Positions 8,535 through 27,163 of a DNA stretch of 64,000 bases are shown here, in pieces (the stretch's first letter is position 1; each line of letters starts with the position of its first letter). Position numbers and translations under genes: made by a program. The stretch comes from Caryophanales bacterium (GTDB lineage Bacteria > Bacillota > Bacilli > Bacillales > Bacillaceae_J), in the NCBI GenBank assembly GCA_012840465.1, contig DULJ01000067.1:101957-165956 (forward strand), read 5' to 3'. The notes below the pieces were generated by a model. The model did no database searches and had not been told where the DNA came from. It worked only from the letters and a program-made list of their open reading frames with translations.

Positions 8535-9416
8535 GTGCTTGAAAATCTATCTATTTTTGGGTTTAGAGCTTTGTGGAGTCCTTTGTTTTTCCTTTGGTTA
8601 GCTGGTATTGCTGTTCTGTATTTTATGTTTGTTAAAAATCCTACAAATAAACAAAGAATATTGTTCATAACTTCACTTGTCTCGCTATATATTATAAAAG
8701 GAAGCCCTATTGATTTACTTGGACATTTAAATTTTAGTATTCACATGGTGCAAATGTCGGTTCTATATTTAATCCTACCGCCGTTATTTTTGCTTTCTAT
8801 TCCGAGTGGGTATTATCGTAAGTTATTGTCAATGAAGGCGTTTAGCCGTCCGTTCTTATTTTTAACAAAACCATTATTTGCCGTTCTTTTATTTAACGGT
8901 GTTTTCTCCATTTATCATTATCCGTTTATTTTTGATGGGATTAAAACAAATACAATCCTTCATGGAAGTGTAACTATTTTCATTTTTATTACAGCTATGA
9001 TTATGTGGTGGCCACTAGTATGTCCATTACCTGAATATCGAAAATTAAGCGGCCTGCAAAAGTTAGCCTATATTTTTGCCGATGGTATGCTGCTAACTCC
9101 AGCATGTGCATTAATCATCTTTTCAGGCGTACCAATATATGAAACATATACTAATCCTGCTGCTTGGGCTCAAGCCTTGGAATTATGTGTTCCGGCAAGT
9201 ATGCTTGCCAATATTGATATAAACAGTGTGCAAATGTTTTCCTGGCTGTCACCGTATGATGATCAACAGCTTGGTGGGGTAATTATGAAAATTATGCAAG
9301 AGATCTCTTATGGAACGACCCTTGGCTATGTATTCTATCAATGGGTACGCGAAGAAAAACAAAAAGAACAGCAGCAACAAACGGCTGTATTACCTTCTCC
9401 ACAACCATTAAAATAA
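8535..9416 (+). CDS. ctaG: Cytochrome c oxidase assembly factor CtaG
   Basis: CtaG-type polytopic protein; GTG start with AGGTG RBS; after ctaF. Confidence 0.88.
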   Translation: MLENLSIFGFRALWSPLFFLWLAGIAVLYFMFVKNPTNKQRILFITSLVSLYIIKGSPIDLLGHLNFSIHMVQMSVLYLILPPLFLLSIPSGYYRKLLSMKAFSRPFLFLTKPLFAVLLFNGVFSIYHYPFIFDGIKTNTILHGSVTIFIFITAMIMWWPLVCPLPEYRKLSGLQKLAYIFADGMLLTPACALIIFSGVPIYETYTNPAAWAQALELCVPASMLANIDINSVQMFSWLSPYDDQQLGGVIMKIMQEISYGTTLGYVFYQWVREEKQKEQQQQTAVLPSPQPLK

Positions 9417-9437
9417 AAGAAGACTGGTACAAAGGAG

Positions 9438-9947
9438 ATGTTGATTTTGGCTCAAATTTTTACAGACCGGTTACTCTTAATGGAGTGTCCGTTAGATTTG
9501 GCAAAATCAATCATTTTAAACCGTAAGCAATTGGAGGAACGGTCGCCTATTTTTATACCCTTGGATTGGCCGTCGATCCAGTTGAAAAGTATTTTTCCTT
9601 ATTATATCGAAATGCTTGAAAATTCACCTTTGACGAACGATCTGAAAATATGGTTGATCATTGATGCCTACGAAAAAAAGTTGATTGGTTCAATAAGACT
9701 TACATGTTCTTTAGATGATCCTAAAACCACCGATATTGGGTACGAAATCATTGCTTCCTCTCGTAATCAAGGGTTTGGTTATGAAGCTGTTCAGGCTGTT
9801 GTAGAGTGGTTATTGAAAAGTAAAAAGGGGACAAAAATAACGGCAGAATGCGACCAAACGAATACGGCCTCAATCAGAATCCTCGAGAAGCTTGGAATGC
9901 GCTGTATAGCGAAGGAAGCACCGTTTTTGAGATGGGAGTTACATTGA
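9438..9947 (+). CDS. GNAT (RimJ/RimL-type) N-acetyltransferase
   Basis: Acetyl-CoA binding region RNQGFGYEAVQAVVEWLL and C-terminal EKLGMRCIAKEAPF. Confidence 0.8.
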   Translation: MLILAQIFTDRLLLMECPLDLAKSIILNRKQLEERSPIFIPLDWPSIQLKSIFPYYIEMLENSPLTNDLKIWLIIDAYEKKLIGSIRLTCSLDDPKTTDIGYEIIASSRNQGFGYEAVQAVVEWLLKSKKGTKITAECDQTNTASIRILEKLGMRCIAKEAPFLRWELH

Positions 9948-9980
9948 ATATCATCAAAGGTAGTATCAATTAATGGGGGA

Positions 9981-10343
9981 ATGAAAATGATTAAGAAAGT
10001 GCTGGAAAGGGGAACTTTAAACATTTCAGAGGATGTTTTTGCGATTATATCATCCATCGTCATAGACGAAATGGAGGGAATCGCTAGCACTGTTTCCGAT
10101 TTTAAAGATGATTTTATCCGGGTTGTGAATAAAAAGGGAAACCAACGAGGAATTAGCATTAATCAAAGCGACGAAGAACTATTAATTGATGTAAAAGTTT
10201 CTGTCTACCTTGAAGAAAATATTTGTGATATATGCATTGAACTCCAAAAAAGAATTATTGATGAAATTAAAATAATGACTGGCATTGAGGTCAGCAGTGT
10301 AAACATAATGATTGATTCAATTCGGATGAAAGAAGAAAAATAA
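9981..10343 (+). CDS. Asp23/Gls24 family protein (putative)
   Basis: GTLNISEDVFAIISSIVIDEMEG...VKVSVYLEENICDICIELQKRI resembles Asp23/Gls24 fold proteins. Confidence 0.65.
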   Translation: MKMIKKVLERGTLNISEDVFAIISSIVIDEMEGIASTVSDFKDDFIRVVNKKGNQRGISINQSDEELLIDVKVSVYLEENICDICIELQKRIIDEIKIMTGIEVSSVNIMIDSIRMKEEK

Positions 10344-10344
10344 C

Positions 10345-10382
10345 AAAGACGCATGGGGTTTTTCCTCATGCGTCTTTTTGCT
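10345..10382. terminator. Convergent terminator
   Basis: AAAGACGCATG...CATGCGTCTTTTTG. Confidence 0.75.
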
Positions 10383-10386
10383 ACTT

Positions 10387-10752
10387 TTATTTAGCAAGTT
10401 CCACTAATTGCTTGTTTACAGCTTCTAGAATTGATTTTGACTTTTCTGTTACATTATTTGGTATTACTTCATCCTCACCATATTCAACACCATGTGGGTA
10501 ATAATGTTTACCAAGGATGGGTGTTAAAAGCTTGATTTTAGCATGATTAGAATCAACATTCCCTTCTACTGCATACCCTTGAACACGTAAATAAAATACT
10601 TCTTTTGTATCTAATTGTTCAAATTTACGGTCAAATGAAACACGTTCATAATCCCATTGTTCTCTAGATAATAATTGATATTCACCTAGTACTCTGCGAA
10701 GCAGTGAAATATCATATACTTTATCATCTAACCCCGTTCCTTCAAATCTCAC
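10387..10752 (-). CDS. ylbA: YugN-like family protein (YlbA)
   Basis: 121 aa; similarity by recognition to YugN family; position between ctaG and ylbB. Confidence 0.7.
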   Translation of the reverse strand: MRFEGTGLDDKVYDISLLRRVLGEYQLLSREQWDYERVSFDRKFEQLDTKEVFYLRVQGYAVEGNVDSNHAKIKLLTPILGKHYYPHGVEYGEDEVIPNNVTEKSKSILEAVNKQLVELAK

Positions 10753-10909
10753 TATGTATCCCTCCTAAATTTCAAAACACTCTAAATCTATAATAGAAGA
10801 AAAGCGTTTAAGATGCAATAAAGACTCGAAAAAAGTTATTTTTGAAAAAATTTTGTATGAGAAATTTATACTATTTTGATCACAATATAAATGTCAAAGT
10901 AATTTTTTT

Positions 10910-11545
10910 ATGAAAGGAGTTTTTCACCTGAAAAAAGTTATTGTTTCCATGTTGTTTTTTGTAATGCTCGGAGCAGGAGCCGCTATCGGGAATGCACAAA
11001 CGCAAACCTATATGGTTCAACCAGGTGATACCATGTGGAAAATTGCTGTACGGTATCAAATTGGTTTAAGTGAATTGATTCAGGCAAACCCGCAAATTAA
11101 AAATCCGGCATTGATTTATCCAAATCAAAGATTGACTATCCCAACCGTTAATGGCGAAAAAAGTATTGAAACAGAGGTTATTCGATTAACAAACCAACAA
11201 AGAGCTAAATATGGGCTCCCAGCTTTAGTAGCTGATTGGGAACTATCAAGAGTGGCACGTTATAAATCCATTGATATGAGGGATAAGAATTATTTTAGCC
11301 ATACGTCACCAACTTATGGGTCACCATTTACGATGATGAAAAACTTTGGTATTCGATATTCAGCAGCAGCAGAAAATATTGCAGCGGGTCAAGCCTCACC
11401 ACAAGAAGTTGTAAACTCTTGGATGAATAGCCCAGGACATCGCCAAAATATTCTAGATTCAAGAATGACCCACATTGGGGTTGGTTATACTAACGGTGGT
11501 GGGTCATACCGTCACTATTGGACACAGATGTTTATTAAAAAATAA
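10910..11545 (+). CDS. Secreted LysM + CAP (SCP-like) domain protein
   Basis: Signal peptide; LysM YMVQPGDTMWKIAVRYQIGLSELIQANPQI; CAP motifs YFSHTSPTYGSPF, NSPGHRQNIL. Confidence 0.9.
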   Translation: MKGVFHLKKVIVSMLFFVMLGAGAAIGNAQTQTYMVQPGDTMWKIAVRYQIGLSELIQANPQIKNPALIYPNQRLTIPTVNGEKSIETEVIRLTNQQRAKYGLPALVADWELSRVARYKSIDMRDKNYFSHTSPTYGSPFTMMKNFGIRYSAAAENIAAGQASPQEVVNSWMNSPGHRQNILDSRMTHIGVGYTNGGGSYRHYWTQMFIKK

Positions 11546-11562
11546 TCTTTGGAGGGACCGAT

Positions 11563-11985
11563 ATGAAAAGTGTTCGCGATGTAATGTCAACAAATGTTGA
11601 GTATTGTACACCAGTGGATAATGCATTTGAAGTAGCGACAAAAATGAAGGATTTAAATGTTGGCGCTATTCCAATTGTAGAAAATGGGAATTTATTAGGG
11701 ATGATTACGGACAGGGATATAGTAATTAGGGGAATTGCGGAAAAACGTTCTGGTTCGGATGCCGTAACCGATCTTATGAGCCAAGAATTAATCACTGTTT
11801 CCCCGGTTTCCTCTGTTCATGAAGCAGCACAAATCATGGCAGAAAAACAAATCCGTCGTCTTCCTGTAGTCGAAAATGGTCAGTTAGTAGGAATTGTGTC
11901 ACTAGGTGACCTTGCGGTTGAAAATGATTCAGACCAAAAAGCAGGCTATGCTCTTAGTGAAATATCCGAACCACCACAGATGTAA
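11563..11985 (+). CDS. ylbB: CBS-domain pair protein (YlbB-like)
   Basis: Two CBS repeats: MITDRDIVIRG, RRLPVVENGQLVGIVSLGDLA. Confidence 0.88.
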   Translation: MKSVRDVMSTNVEYCTPVDNAFEVATKMKDLNVGAIPIVENGNLLGMITDRDIVIRGIAEKRSGSDAVTDLMSQELITVSPVSSVHEAAQIMAEKQIRRLPVVENGQLVGIVSLGDLAVENDSDQKAGYALSEISEPPQM

Positions 11986-11995
11986 GATATAAAAA

Positions 11996-12032
11996 AGCGG
12001 AGGTACCTTCTTAGGAAGGTACCTCTTATTTT
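11996..12032 (+). terminator. Terminator after ylbB
   Basis: GAGGTACCTTC-TTAG-GAAGGTACCTC followed by TTATTTTTTTT. Confidence 0.85.
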
Positions 12033-12101
12033 TTTTAGGAATAAAATTAAATCCCATCTATATAATGGTATAGAAAGTAAGGACAAGCAGGGGGGCTTTT
12101 T

Positions 12102-13145
12102 ATGGGGAAAAACATCCTTTCTTTTTTTATACTAGTAACATTAGTGTCCGTATTAGCTATTATCTACGTTCAATTACCTGGTGCAACATTCCAAACGACT
12201 TCTACCAAATTGATGATTCCTGAAATGGTAGAGAAAGAAACAGAGTCGCCATTTCCGAAGGAAACAAGGAAGATGTACGAGTTAATTGGAAAGGATAGGG
12301 AAGAAGTAATTAAATTACTTGGACAACCACGAAGAATAGATGCATCTGAGTATGATTATGATTGGTGGATCTACAATGAATCTATCACTAATTATTGCCA
12401 AATAGGAATCGAAAATGACAAAGTAGTCACCGTCTATGTAATGGGTGAAAACAATGAAATTGCTCCCTTTCATATTGGCCAAACCCGAAATACCCTCGAA
12501 ACAATAGTTGATCTATCAGATAAAGTAGCCTTGGAAGTTGATAAAAATTTATATCAATTTGAATTAACGAAAGAAGAAGTAGATACTGTTCCGCTAATCC
12601 AATATAAAAATATTTGGGCACAAATCTATATTGATAAGTTTAGTGGCACGATTTCAAGTATAAGGTTCCTTGATGCGGAAACTTTAGTTAAAATTAGACC
12701 GTATGAGCTTGTATATCGAGGTAATTTAATTTCTGCAAAGGAAATTGCTTCTAAAAGGTGGTATGAAATTGAAAAGGGGAAGGCTTTGCAGATATTAGAT
12801 ATGACGAATGTATTAAGAGAACGTAATGGGTTAAGCGCTGTGAATTGGGATGAATCCGCAGCTGTCGTTGCCTATGACCACTCAAGGGAAATGTTTGAAG
12901 AAAAGTATTTTTCGCATAATTCACCTACTTATGGGGATTTAGCCGATCGTTTGGTAAACGGTGGTGTTGATTTCAGAGTGGCGGGAGAGAATATAGCCGC
13001 ACGTTATGTTGATGCCATCTCAGCGGTAGAAGGATGGTTGAATAGTGAAGGGCATCGTACAACCCTTTTAAATAAGGAATTTACCCACTTAGGGGTTGGT
13101 GTGTATGAAAAGTACTATACTCAAAATTTTATAAAGGCATGGTAA
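12102..13145 (+). CDS. ylbC: CAP-domain protein with CAP-associated N-terminal domain (YlbC)
   Basis: Signal anchor; IGKDREEVIKLLGQPRRIDASEYDYDWWIY; CAP motifs YFSHNSPTYGDLADRL, NSEGHRTTLL. Confidence 0.85.
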   Translation: MGKNILSFFILVTLVSVLAIIYVQLPGATFQTTSTKLMIPEMVEKETESPFPKETRKMYELIGKDREEVIKLLGQPRRIDASEYDYDWWIYNESITNYCQIGIENDKVVTVYVMGENNEIAPFHIGQTRNTLETIVDLSDKVALEVDKNLYQFELTKEEVDTVPLIQYKNIWAQIYIDKFSGTISSIRFLDAETLVKIRPYELVYRGNLISAKEIASKRWYEIEKGKALQILDMTNVLRERNGLSAVNWDESAAVVAYDHSREMFEEKYFSHNSPTYGDLADRLVNGGVDFRVAGENIAARYVDAISAVEGWLNSEGHRTTLLNKEFTHLGVGVYEKYYTQNFIKAW

Positions 13146-23582: not shown

Positions 23583-23595
23583 TGTAAAGAAAAAA
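23583..23595. repeat. Candidate attachment-site direct repeat (left)
   Basis: TGTAAAGAAAAAA, repeated at 27120-27132. Confidence 0.4.
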
Positions 23596-23627: not shown

Positions 23628-24751
23628 TCATATGGTTTCGTCGGATTGATTTTCGTCTTTGACCACAACATGACCACGGAATAGAATTTCGTCTATTTTT
23701 TCACTCGCTTCTACTTGACGCTGGTCAAATACATCGGTATAAATGTTAAGAGTGAAAGATACATCGCTATGACCTAAGCGCTGTGACACGACCTTGGGAC
23801 TCACACCCTCGTCGATCAGGATGGACGTGTGAGTTCTTCTTATGTCGTGAAATCTGATCACTGGTATTTTTAATTCTTCAGCTATTTTCTTTAAGATGTA
23901 TCTCAAAGTATAAGGATCCACGATTTTCTTCTTCTTGGTCCTGAACACTAAATCCTCAGAAGTATTCTTGCTAAACTTTCTGTGCTCCTGGAATTGTTCA
24001 ATCAGGAAATCACTGATAGGGATATAGCGGTCGCTCGATTCTGTTTTAACGGGTCCGATAACATAATCACCTTCAACTAATGTAATCGTGTGTTGGATAT
24101 GAATGACCTTGCTGTCAAAGTCGATATCAGACCAATGTAATCCCAATACCTCGCCGATTCTCATCCCAGTGTAGAAAGCTAATAAATATGTTAGAAAGTA
24201 ATTTGACCGCAGTTTTGCAGCTTCCAAAAAGATCAATGCTTGTTCTTTAGTCCAACTTTTTTGTTTTGTTTTAGACATTTTCGGTTTGTCCACATTCTCC
24301 ACAGGATTTTTGTGAATCAATTCCATTTGAACACCTTTTTTAAAAATAGAGCCAATGATCGTGCCGATATACGATATATACTTTTTAGACATGCCCTGAT
24401 TTTTTAGTTTTTGATAGAAATTGTGGATGTGTATTGGTTTTGTCTAATCGTTCGAATGTGGGCATAATACGAGCGTTTAGCGCACGCTTATAAGAGTACA
24501 TAGTCGATTCTCTGACGTCACCTTGTTTGCTGGAAAGCCACAAGTCTGCAAGTTCTTTAAAAGTGAATTTTGATGTAGGCATGATAAATGCCACGTTCAT
24601 AATCGGCCATCGCTAAAATCATGGCTCTTTCAGCTTCTTTTTCGTCTGCAAATCAACCTTTTGATATTTCTTTACGTTTATTCGTTATGGGATCTTTAAC
24701 ATGAAATCGATATTGATACGTATTTCCCCGTTGTCTTACGTTTCATTTCAC
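23628..24751 (-). pseudogene. Tyrosine recombinase/phage integrase, disrupted
   Basis: C-terminal 254 aa carry the catalytic core (TGMRIGEVLGLHW, HDIRRTHTSILIDEG, LGHSDVSFTLNIYTDV). The N-terminus is split over two further frames with in-frame TGA at 24743-24745 and 24653-24655. Confidence 0.88.
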
Positions 24752-24884
24752 GGAATCACCTTCTTGTAGTTATCCCTCAGTTATTGTGTCTTTTTATATA
24801 TGTTCAGAATCACGTTCTGTTATTTTGATTCTTCTTCTGCAGATGCCAGTTGCGCTTCTTTCTTTGATAACAAGAGCAGGCAAA

Positions 24885-24906
24885 TGGGCCTGCTCTCGAT
24901 GGTTTT
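24885..24906 (-). terminator. Terminator-like hairpin downstream of fic
   Basis: GAGCAGGC-AAATGG-GCCTGCTC near the fic 3' end. Confidence 0.45.
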
Positions 24907-24930
24907 AATTAATTAGCGCTAATTAATTAA
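24905..24930. repeat. Perfect 26-bp palindrome
   Basis: TTAATTAATTAGC|GCTAATTAATTAA, 5 bp from fic stop. Confidence 0.85.
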
Positions 24931-24935
24931 TAGTT

Positions 24936-25652
24936 TTACTCCGTTGTTTCTGGTGGGATCTGTTGGTTTTCTTTATTTTGAAATCTACATAGGCGTTCTT
25001 GTTCTTCTGCCAACATCTTTTCGATGAATTGAGTGAAATGCACTACATCTTGTTCGGATAATAAACGTAAATAGCTTGCTTTATCTTGGCTGTTAATGAT
25101 GAGTGGTTCGAAATCATGTTGCATAAGGGAATAGTTCATCACTATTCGTCCTGTACGCCCATTCCCATCTGCGAATGGGTGAATACGTTCAAAAGCAATG
25201 TGAGCTTCAGCGATGATGCTTAATTTTTCTTTCGAATCTGTTGCTGTGTCTAAACGATAGTTGAGATTATCCACCCATTGTTGCATAAGCATAGGTGTTT
25301 CCTGTACACTTGCTGTCATGAAATCAGCACCCACAATCGCATTTTCAACAGACTTAAATTGTCCTCGATCGTATTGCAGACGATCCATCAATAAAAAATG
25401 AATTTCTTTGACTGTATGCAGTTGTGGCGGCTCATTGTTTTTTAGTGCTTCAAGTACATAGCGGAATGCCTGTTCATGATTTTTGATTTCATATACTTCT
25501 CTTAAATCAAGACTGCGGTTACTCGACACTTGATTGTGCAGTATGATAGAAATGGTTTCTGCTAATGTAATTGTGTTGCCCTCTAATGCAGATGAATGGT
25601 GGGCCAACCGTACAAGGATGTCGTCTAGATATTCTTTTGACCACTTTTTCAT
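24936..25652 (-). CDS. fic: Fic family protein (class II, N-terminal inhibitory motif)
   Basis: Catalytic HPFADGNGRTGR; N-terminal inhibitory-type motif SSALEGN; flap GADFMTASVQETPMLM; intact 238 aa ORF with RBS. Confidence 0.93.
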   Translation of the reverse strand: MKKWSKEYLDDILVRLAHHSSALEGNTITLAETISIILHNQVSSNRSLDLREVYEIKNHEQAFRYVLEALKNNEPPQLHTVKEIHFLLMDRLQYDRGQFKSVENAIVGADFMTASVQETPMLMQQWVDNLNYRLDTATDSKEKLSIIAEAHIAFERIHPFADGNGRTGRIVMNYSLMQHDFEPLIINSQDKASYLRLLSEQDVVHFTQFIEKMLAEEQERLCRFQNKENQQIPPETTE

Positions 25653-25669
25653 TCTCTTTCCCTCCTTTC

Positions 25670-26326
25670 TTAAGATAGGTCCCTTGTTACACGTACCGCT
25701 TTTCCGATAATTCTTGCTGGATTGTTTTCATCAACAATGATGGGACTATGTATCGGATTGTCTGGCATCAGCATAATATAATCGCCTTGTTTTCTTACTC
25801 TCTTCAAGGTTGCTTCTATATCACCATTAACAAGCACAGCTGCAATCTGCCCGTATTCCACTTCTGGTTGTTCACGTATGAGTACATGCGACCCATCAGG
25901 GATCGTTGGCTCCATCGAATCACCTTTAGTTTCGAGGTAAAAAACATTTCCACTAGGCAAGGTGTCCGGGGATTCGTACCGGTAGCCTTTGAAATTCTGT
26001 TCATCCAACAGTGGATCCTCACAGGCGATTGTGCCCAGAATCGGTACAGGTACTGTCATTGGTGCGATAGGTATTAGGTTGGTTGGTTTTTCTTCTGTTT
26101 GTTTGAAGCTAGGGTCTATTTCTGATTTTGGAACTCCGAAAGCTTCTGATAATTTCTCTACGTTTCCTGGACTAATCAATGTTCTGCAATTTATATAGTC
26201 AGAGAGCGTGCTTTTTGAAATACCTGATTTCTCACTAAGTTTCAGTTGGGTCCAGCCTCTAGCGGTTCTTAATCGCGTTATATTATCTGATATCCGCTTT
26301 TTTAAAGGTAAGTCTCGATCGATCAT
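25670..26326 (-). CDS. XRE-family transcriptional repressor with S24/LexA-type peptidase domain (CI-like)
   Basis: HTH RTARGWTQLKLSEKSGISKSTLSDYINC; S24 domain KGDSMEPTIPDGSHVLI with catalytic Lys region ATLKRVRKQ; ATG with RBS AGGAGGTGATGTA. Confidence 0.92.
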   Translation of the reverse strand: MIDRDLPLKKRISDNITRLRTARGWTQLKLSEKSGISKSTLSDYINCRTLISPGNVEKLSEAFGVPKSEIDPSFKQTEEKPTNLIPIAPMTVPVPILGTIACEDPLLDEQNFKGYRYESPDTLPSGNVFYLETKGDSMEPTIPDGSHVLIREQPEVEYGQIAAVLVNGDIEATLKRVRKQGDYIMLMPDNPIHSPIIVDENNPARIIGKAVRVTRDLS

Positions 26327-26360
26327 TACATCACCTCCTTTCCTTTGTAATTCCATTATA

Positions 26361-26376
26361 TCCGAAAAGATACGGA
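26361..26376. promoter_or_regulatory. Candidate repressor operator O1
   Basis: TCCG-AAAAGATA-CGGA overlapping the leftward promoter (TGTACA-N17-TATAAT on the minus strand). Confidence 0.65.
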
Positions 26377-26390
26377 ATGTACACGATATT

Positions 26391-26406
26391 TCCGAAATAA
26401 ACCGGA
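26391..26406. promoter_or_regulatory. Candidate repressor operator O2
   Basis: TCCG-AAATAAAC-CGGA, 30 bp from O1, just upstream of rightward TATAAT. Confidence 0.65.
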
Positions 26407-26446
26407 TACCCTATAATTACACCGAGCAATAAGGAGGTGAAATACC

Positions 26447-26608
26447 TTGGAAATGAAAATAACTTTAAAAGTTACGAGAGTAAACTCAGGACTTAAATTA
26501 GTTGAAGCTACCAATAAATTCGGGGTTAATAAAGATACTTTATCCAAGTATGAAAAGGATTCTTACAACGTGCCTCGATCTTTTTTTGCAAAAATTGAAG
26601 AAGTGTAG
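26447..26608 (+). pseudogene. Cro-like XRE protein, probably truncated/frameshifted
   Basis: TTG start after AAGGAGGTGAAATACC; LEMKITLKVTRVNSGLKLVEATNKFGVNKDTLSKYEKDSYNVPRSFFAKIEEV then TAG; family-like C-terminus (LGPKSYFFRKSKTA) continues in another frame. Confidence 0.65.
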
Positions 26609-26732
26609 GGTGTCCGGTGGAAAATATTTTCTTGGACCTAAATCCTACTTTTTTCGGAAATCAAAAACAGCATAGCGAGGAGGTGAGGGAGATGGAAAGA
26701 AACAATCAAAAACACCAGTTCACACTGGTGTT

Positions 26733-27119: not shown

Positions 27120-27132
27120 TGTAAAGAAAAAA
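27120..27132. repeat. Candidate attachment-site direct repeat (right)
   Basis: TGTAAAGAAAAAA, 2 bp upstream of ylbN -35. Confidence 0.4.
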
Positions 27133-27134
27133 TA

Positions 27135-27163
27135 TTGACAAATATGTTGGTGAAAGCTATAAT
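27135..27163 (+). promoter_or_regulatory. SigA promoter for ylbN-rpmF
   Basis: TTGACA-N17-TATAAT, consensus. Confidence 0.85.

Follow-up and report, generated by a model that had tools for sequence, protein, structure and literature searches.

An intact class II Fic gene of a candidate phage-defence family beside an S24-type repressor in a putative phage remnant of Schinkia

In phages and satellites, the slot between the repressor and the integrase is a place for defence and superinfection genes, and in other Firmicute elements an ImmA-type protease occupies the place beside the repressor. Ltp of phage TP-J34, a surface lipoprotein that blocks DNA injection, is encoded by such a cargo gene of the lysogeny module and is transcribed in the prophage state (PMC3952083). 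Among Fic proteins, SoFic protects against T5, with abortive infection as the presumed mode of action (PMC12249575), and SoFic of S. thermophilus has a minimal to moderate effect (PMC11514479, PMC12322248). A further group, PDC-S04, is a single-gene computational candidate for phage defence in PADLOC that pools several Fic groups. Its frequency in a collection of S. suis is 55% (PMC12813430), and its deletion from E. coli NILS69 had no measurable effect with the 10 phages tested (PMC12409345). No literature on the exact repressor–fic arrangement described below was found.

The locus lies in a 64 000-nucleotide stretch of contig DULJ01000067.1 (the window) from the genome of a soil bacterium that groups with S. 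azotoformans LMG 9581 in the genus Schinkia. It consists of 3.5 kb of extra DNA between ylbM and ylbN, two genes that are adjacent in three other Schinkia genomes. Its features are as follows.

23583–23595, no strand: attL-like copy of the 13-bp direct repeat TGTAAAGAAAAAA, identical to 27120–27132
23628–24742, minus strand: tyrosine integrase pseudogene with one in-frame stop and two frameshifts
24823–24873, minus strand: scrap of a second integrase, 17 residues, of the S. azotoformans-prophage type (91% nucleotide match)
24873–24896, no strand: terminator-like hairpin of 9 pairs with a T-rich tail, after fic; segment kept in S. azotoformans
24936–25652, minus strand: fic, encoding a 238-residue class II Fic protein of the PDC-S04/phrog_11900 family
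25670–26326, minus strand: S24-type (CI/LexA-like) repressor, 218 residues from an RBS-preceded ATG at 26326
26355–26383, minus strand: promoter-like TGTACA-17-TATAAT before the repressor, overlapping a palindromic operator-like site, ATCCGAAAAGATACGGAA
26447–26680, plus strand: cro-like gene, reduced to 53 residues because one base pair present in S. azotoformans is deleted
27120–27132, no strand: attR-like copy of TGTAAAGAAAAAA, just upstream of the ylbN promoter

The repeat TGTAAAGAAAAAA is present as a single copy at the empty site in the three other Schinkia genomes. A perfect ylbN–rpmF promoter (TTGACA-17-TATAAT) is found at 27135–27163, 2 bp past the right repeat, and the insertion point seems to abut this promoter while sparing it. 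The C-terminal ORF of the integrase matches Phage_integrase (E = 6.5e-29), and three frames are required to span homologous integrases; a search of viral contigs gave no close intact relative (best 26% identity). The second-integrase scrap is 76% identical to residues 53–69 of the S. azotoformans-prophage integrase (E = 0.001), which points to an exchange of integrases. Compared with S. azotoformans, the window has small deletions that disrupt the cro-like gene and lacks part of the operator upstream of that gene, while its repressor-side promoter survives. The remnant has thus lost its lytic side and its integrase and retains an intact repressor–fic side, in line with the first-pass annotation, which had described broken integrase and Cro-like genes beside clean fic and repressor ORFs.

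The same annotation had called the fic product an intact class II Fic protein with an SSALEGN N-terminus and the autoinhibition motif of that class, and ORF and motifs bear this out. The protein (PHROG 11900) matches the Pfam Fic domain with E = 3e-20; its catalytic motif HPFADGNGRTGR (residues 158–169) fits the published consensus HxFx[D/E]GNGRxxR, and SSALEG (residues 20–25) fits the published inhibitory consensus [S/T]xxxE[G/N]. His158, Asp162, Asn164 and both arginines of the catalytic motif are invariant in alignment A1, as are Ser20, Glu24 and Gly25 of the inhibitory motif. An AlphaFold model (pLDDT 77, pTM 0.76, with low-confidence regions at residues 92–112 and 159–161) places SSALEG at the end of a helix formed by residues 6–23 and matches the folds of BT_2513, FICD and C. 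difficile Fic structures. FICD/HYPE, C. difficile Fic 0569 and BT_2513 (3cuc, 6i7g and 4x2e) are the best sequence and fold matches, at 20–27% identity and TM scores of 0.56–0.69, and differ from the window protein in their biology. By its class II family membership, the protein is a predicted AMPylase whose N-terminal SSALEG helix would obstruct the active site. The source genome has five more Fic-family matches (C65:60510, C70:99682, C25:5323, C80:41981 and C79:6075), with in-frame stops in those at C65 and C25 and only a short fragment at C80.

The protein matches the PADLOC PDC-S04 model PDLC04840 over its full length (residues 4–226 on model positions 3–224 of 227; E = 5.8e-91, 302 bits), and the locus is therefore not the undescribed system that it had first been taken for. 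SoFic is the next-best defence system in PADLOC (109 bits, 1.1e-31) and has the catalytic and N-terminal inhibitory motifs in common with the window protein, which, however, has 238 residues versus about 370 and leaves no room for the C-terminal domain of SoFic. No AS1-like small gene was seen at the window locus, and the SoFic model NF046030 of NCBIfam gives 37.2 bits against a curated cut-off of 550. The mobile mystery protein A/B pair (HTH plus Fic, TIGR02613) was likewise rejected, at 26.4 bits against a cut-off of 124.4. The likeness to Ltp is one of position in the lysogeny module, whereas the window gene belongs to an enzyme family. The window pair adds a well-kept case to a cargo type already known, from a candidate-defence Fic family, and is not a new system.

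The repressor stop and the fic ATG are separated by 17 bp (25653–25669), with the RBS AAGGAGGG shortly 5′ of the ATG; the RBS had been noted correctly at first, and the spacing had been given as 18 bp. The two genes probably form a bicistronic operon, as also proposed in that annotation, and the promoter-like site before the repressor and the hairpin after fic agree with a single transcript. Both signals are consensus matches, and promoter-like sites in the region are no commoner than in shuffled sequences. Between fic and the terminator, positions 24905–24930 form a perfect 26-bp palindrome, TTAATTAATTAGCGCTAATTAATTAA, which S. azotoformans shares almost unchanged.

The repressor contains HTH_3 (1.8e-13) and Peptidase_S24 (1.1e-25) domains, and its Ser/Lys dyad is kept, with Ser137 (in GDSM) and Lys175 invariant in the alignment. 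Position 103, which follows the conserved Cys102, is Glu in the window and Gly in all 11 relatives among the 12 aligned sequences, so that a Cys-Glu bond replaces the Cys-Gly bond and the Ala/Cys-Gly pattern of a cleavable repressor is lost. This position aligns with Gly85 of LexA, and the best solved-structure match, 1jhf, has Asp there. The G85D form of E. coli LexA (lexA3) is uncleavable (PMC6872733), and the Gly103→Glu change is of the same class, so the window repressor is predicted to be uncleavable. In the first-pass annotation fic had been proposed to be conditional on the repressor, which in this copy looks uncleavable. Given this change at the self-cleavage site, the operon is predicted to be insensitive to SOS and to stay on. 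What is new in the locus is the combination of Gly→Glu in the repressor and a partly deleted cro-side operator with a retained repressor–fic promoter and terminator.

A prophage of S. azotoformans carries the same cro–repressor–fic order with 90% nucleotide identity (repressor 93% and Fic 89% at the amino-acid level), so the repressor–fic pairing is not unique to the strain; other repressor–fic loci occur elsewhere. The shared stretch, from cro through repressor and fic to the terminator, covers approximately 24824 to 26696 of the window. The S. azotoformans cassette occupies a different location, beside suf genes, and its integrase is only 25% identical to that of the window. Up to the contig end, the element further encodes an anti-repressor and an SbcC-like protein (PHROGs) and, by sequence, a helicase, an SSB and replication-type proteins; no structural phage genes were found on this part. 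A search of GenBank phages for a close relative of the whole cassette returned partial matches of 67–68% only.

Comparison of the two Schinkia copies gives a dN/dS of 0.18 for fic (95% CI 0.10–0.29) and 0.09 for the repressor, similar to the host genes ylbN (0.20) and ylbM (0.12). This indicates purifying divergence of fic, not the value near 1 named at the outset as the mark of neutral evolution; as a comparison of two copies it carries no timing of selection, and the purifying divergence measured may largely have arisen before the window copy was trapped. These data bear on the reading that the remnant has merely not yet lost fic and the repressor, neither of which would have a present function. 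This reading is compatible with an origin as cargo. It is a serious possibility to which we give rather less than even chances. It is favoured by the ongoing decay of the element and by the radical substitution at the repressor's cleavage site; with only two Schinkia copies compared, the divergence may date from the living phage. Against it, the five lesions counted are confined to the integrase and cro (∼1.29 kb), with fic and the repressor (1.37 kb) free of them, a distribution with a chance probability of ∼0.027 from a small count made post hoc after the pattern was seen. The promoter, RBS and terminator are also retained.

Viral contigs with repressors ∼52–58% identical to that of the window show how close the tie between fic and the repressor is. 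Downstream of the repressor, fic was found in none of 11, and in ten the next gene with the repressor's orientation encodes a serine recombinase or tyrosine integrase; an opposite-strand ORF intervenes in one of these (L156), and another gene intervenes in the eleventh (L148). In Streptococcus satellites, fic accompanies both S24 and non-S24 repressors, sometimes with two other genes between, and across the loci of the Fic family the spacing from repressor to fic reaches about 1.6 kb. Since fic is absent beside the closest repressors and present with unrelated ones, it is slot cargo and not an obligate partner, and a dedicated repressor–Fic pair of the toxin–antitoxin or regulator type was rejected for the same two reasons. 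The first-pass annotation was thus right to see fic as cargo of the lysogeny module and wrong in its special coupling to the repressor, given that the closest repressor relatives are without fic and that satellites use unrelated repressors, often with intervening genes. The same contigs weigh against Fic as a regulator of lysogeny that takes the place of the ImmA-type protease and adjusts induction by modifying either the repressor or a host factor. In both Schinkia elements fic lies directly 3′ of the repressor and apparently shares its transcript, which would suit such a role. None of the eleven contigs has fic, however, the family also occurs beside unrelated repressors or none, at distances of up to ∼1.6 kb, and the window repressor has its own S24 peptidase; we regard this role as very improbable. 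The slot itself is exemplified by satellite phage Javan277, in which the interval between repressor and integrase (8539–13100) contains a ThsB-like gene (1e-13), fic (PDC-S04) and an AbiD-like gene (2e-26) and, judged by these matches, is a small defence hotspot.

The distribution of the family was surveyed by a profile search, with matches above 200 bits counted in a sample of 400 genomes of the class; a sharp gap in score, from 233 to 131 bits, separates the family from other Fic proteins. It was found in 9 of the 400 genomes, in 16 of 197 of genus g53 (Streptococcus, judging from the match to Streptococcus satellites), in 6 of 250 of family f20 and in 8 of 18 of family f55. The 58 loci collected, a sample biased by the seeking of satellite and viral records, comprise 18 with the order repressor–fic–integrase, two fic–integrase, nine parA–x–fic, seven type I R-M, one relaxase operon and 21 others. 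The repressor–fic–integrase label changes at least six times on the tree and falls in at least two separate clades; it includes Lysinibacillus and many Streptococcus satellites with other repressors. An integrase lies near 8 of 35 clusters of this family and near 2 of 21 other Fic genes, which is not a significant enrichment (Fisher p = 0.29). About half of the 35 dereplicated clusters lie outside any recognized element or defence locus. In six Streptococcus-like genomes, fic is embedded in a type I R-M operon (hsdR–hsdS–fic–partial hsdS–hsdM), with a serS-like gene beside one such locus (L103), a clear case of a gene embedded in a defence operon; the R-M-embedded Streptococcus relative matches PDC-S04 at 8e-113. 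The nine parA-associated loci, from family f55, form one clade; fic there comes after parA and a second, small gene of partition type, and many of the contigs are plasmid-sized. The relaxase-operon locus is on plasmid pLI100.

The plasmid copies, after parA and the small partition-type gene or in the relaxase operon of pLI100, suggest a different role, in which Fic, kept in check by its inhibitory helix or by a partner, would serve as an addiction or maintenance toxin that prevents loss of the element and would not shield the host from phage. Fic toxins that AMPylate gyrase are known (PMC13327609). On the other side, no partner gene is conserved and the neighbours of fic on both sides vary with context, in the window the interval from fic to the terminator contains no small ORF, and the family includes many solitary copies for which an addiction purpose is not obvious. 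We consider a maintenance role doubtful.

Taken as a whole, the locus is best explained as a phage remnant with an inserted Fic defence cargo beside the repressor, which we hold to be somewhat better than an even proposition. A temperate phage (or a related integrated element) would have inserted between ylbM and the ylbN–rpmF promoter and decayed to 3.5 kb, its lysogeny module retaining the repressor–fic operon while the integrase and cro died, with fic as inserted cargo in the repressor–integrase slot. Fic would be produced whenever the repressor is produced. By analogy to SoFic, a trigger such as infection or a competing element might relieve its autoinhibition, and the released enzyme may then AMPylate an essential host or phage protein and halt phage growth. 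In the window copy, the operon would stay on as a repressor-autoregulated pair. We favour this explanation because of the 13-bp att-like repeats and the unoccupied site of three other Schinkia genomes; the cassette shared with a differently located S. azotoformans element that carries another integrase and phage early genes; the PDC-S04 match, the repressor–fic–integrase order in 18 of 58 loci, the Javan277 slot and the R-M-embedded fic; and the low dN/dS of both genes with Gly103→Glu in the window only. Against it stand the PDC-S04 deletion without effect in E. coli, the roughly half of clusters outside elements and the insignificant integrase enrichment.

The most probable status of fic is that of defence cargo within a remnant that is locked and not inducible. 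A stronger reading, which we think improbable, is that of a domesticated immunity island: after the death of the phage, selection would have kept an uncleavable repressor and an autoinhibited Fic defence enzyme as one operon, the locking of the repressor being adaptive and not decay. If that were true, the uncleavable repressor would give constant immunity to related phages. The occurrence of one Fic family in phage, satellite, plasmid and R-M contexts, together with a minimal remnant of repressor and fic only, provides a natural comparison, and the locus is suited to a clean test of whether this Fic family defends the host, stabilizes elements or does neither.
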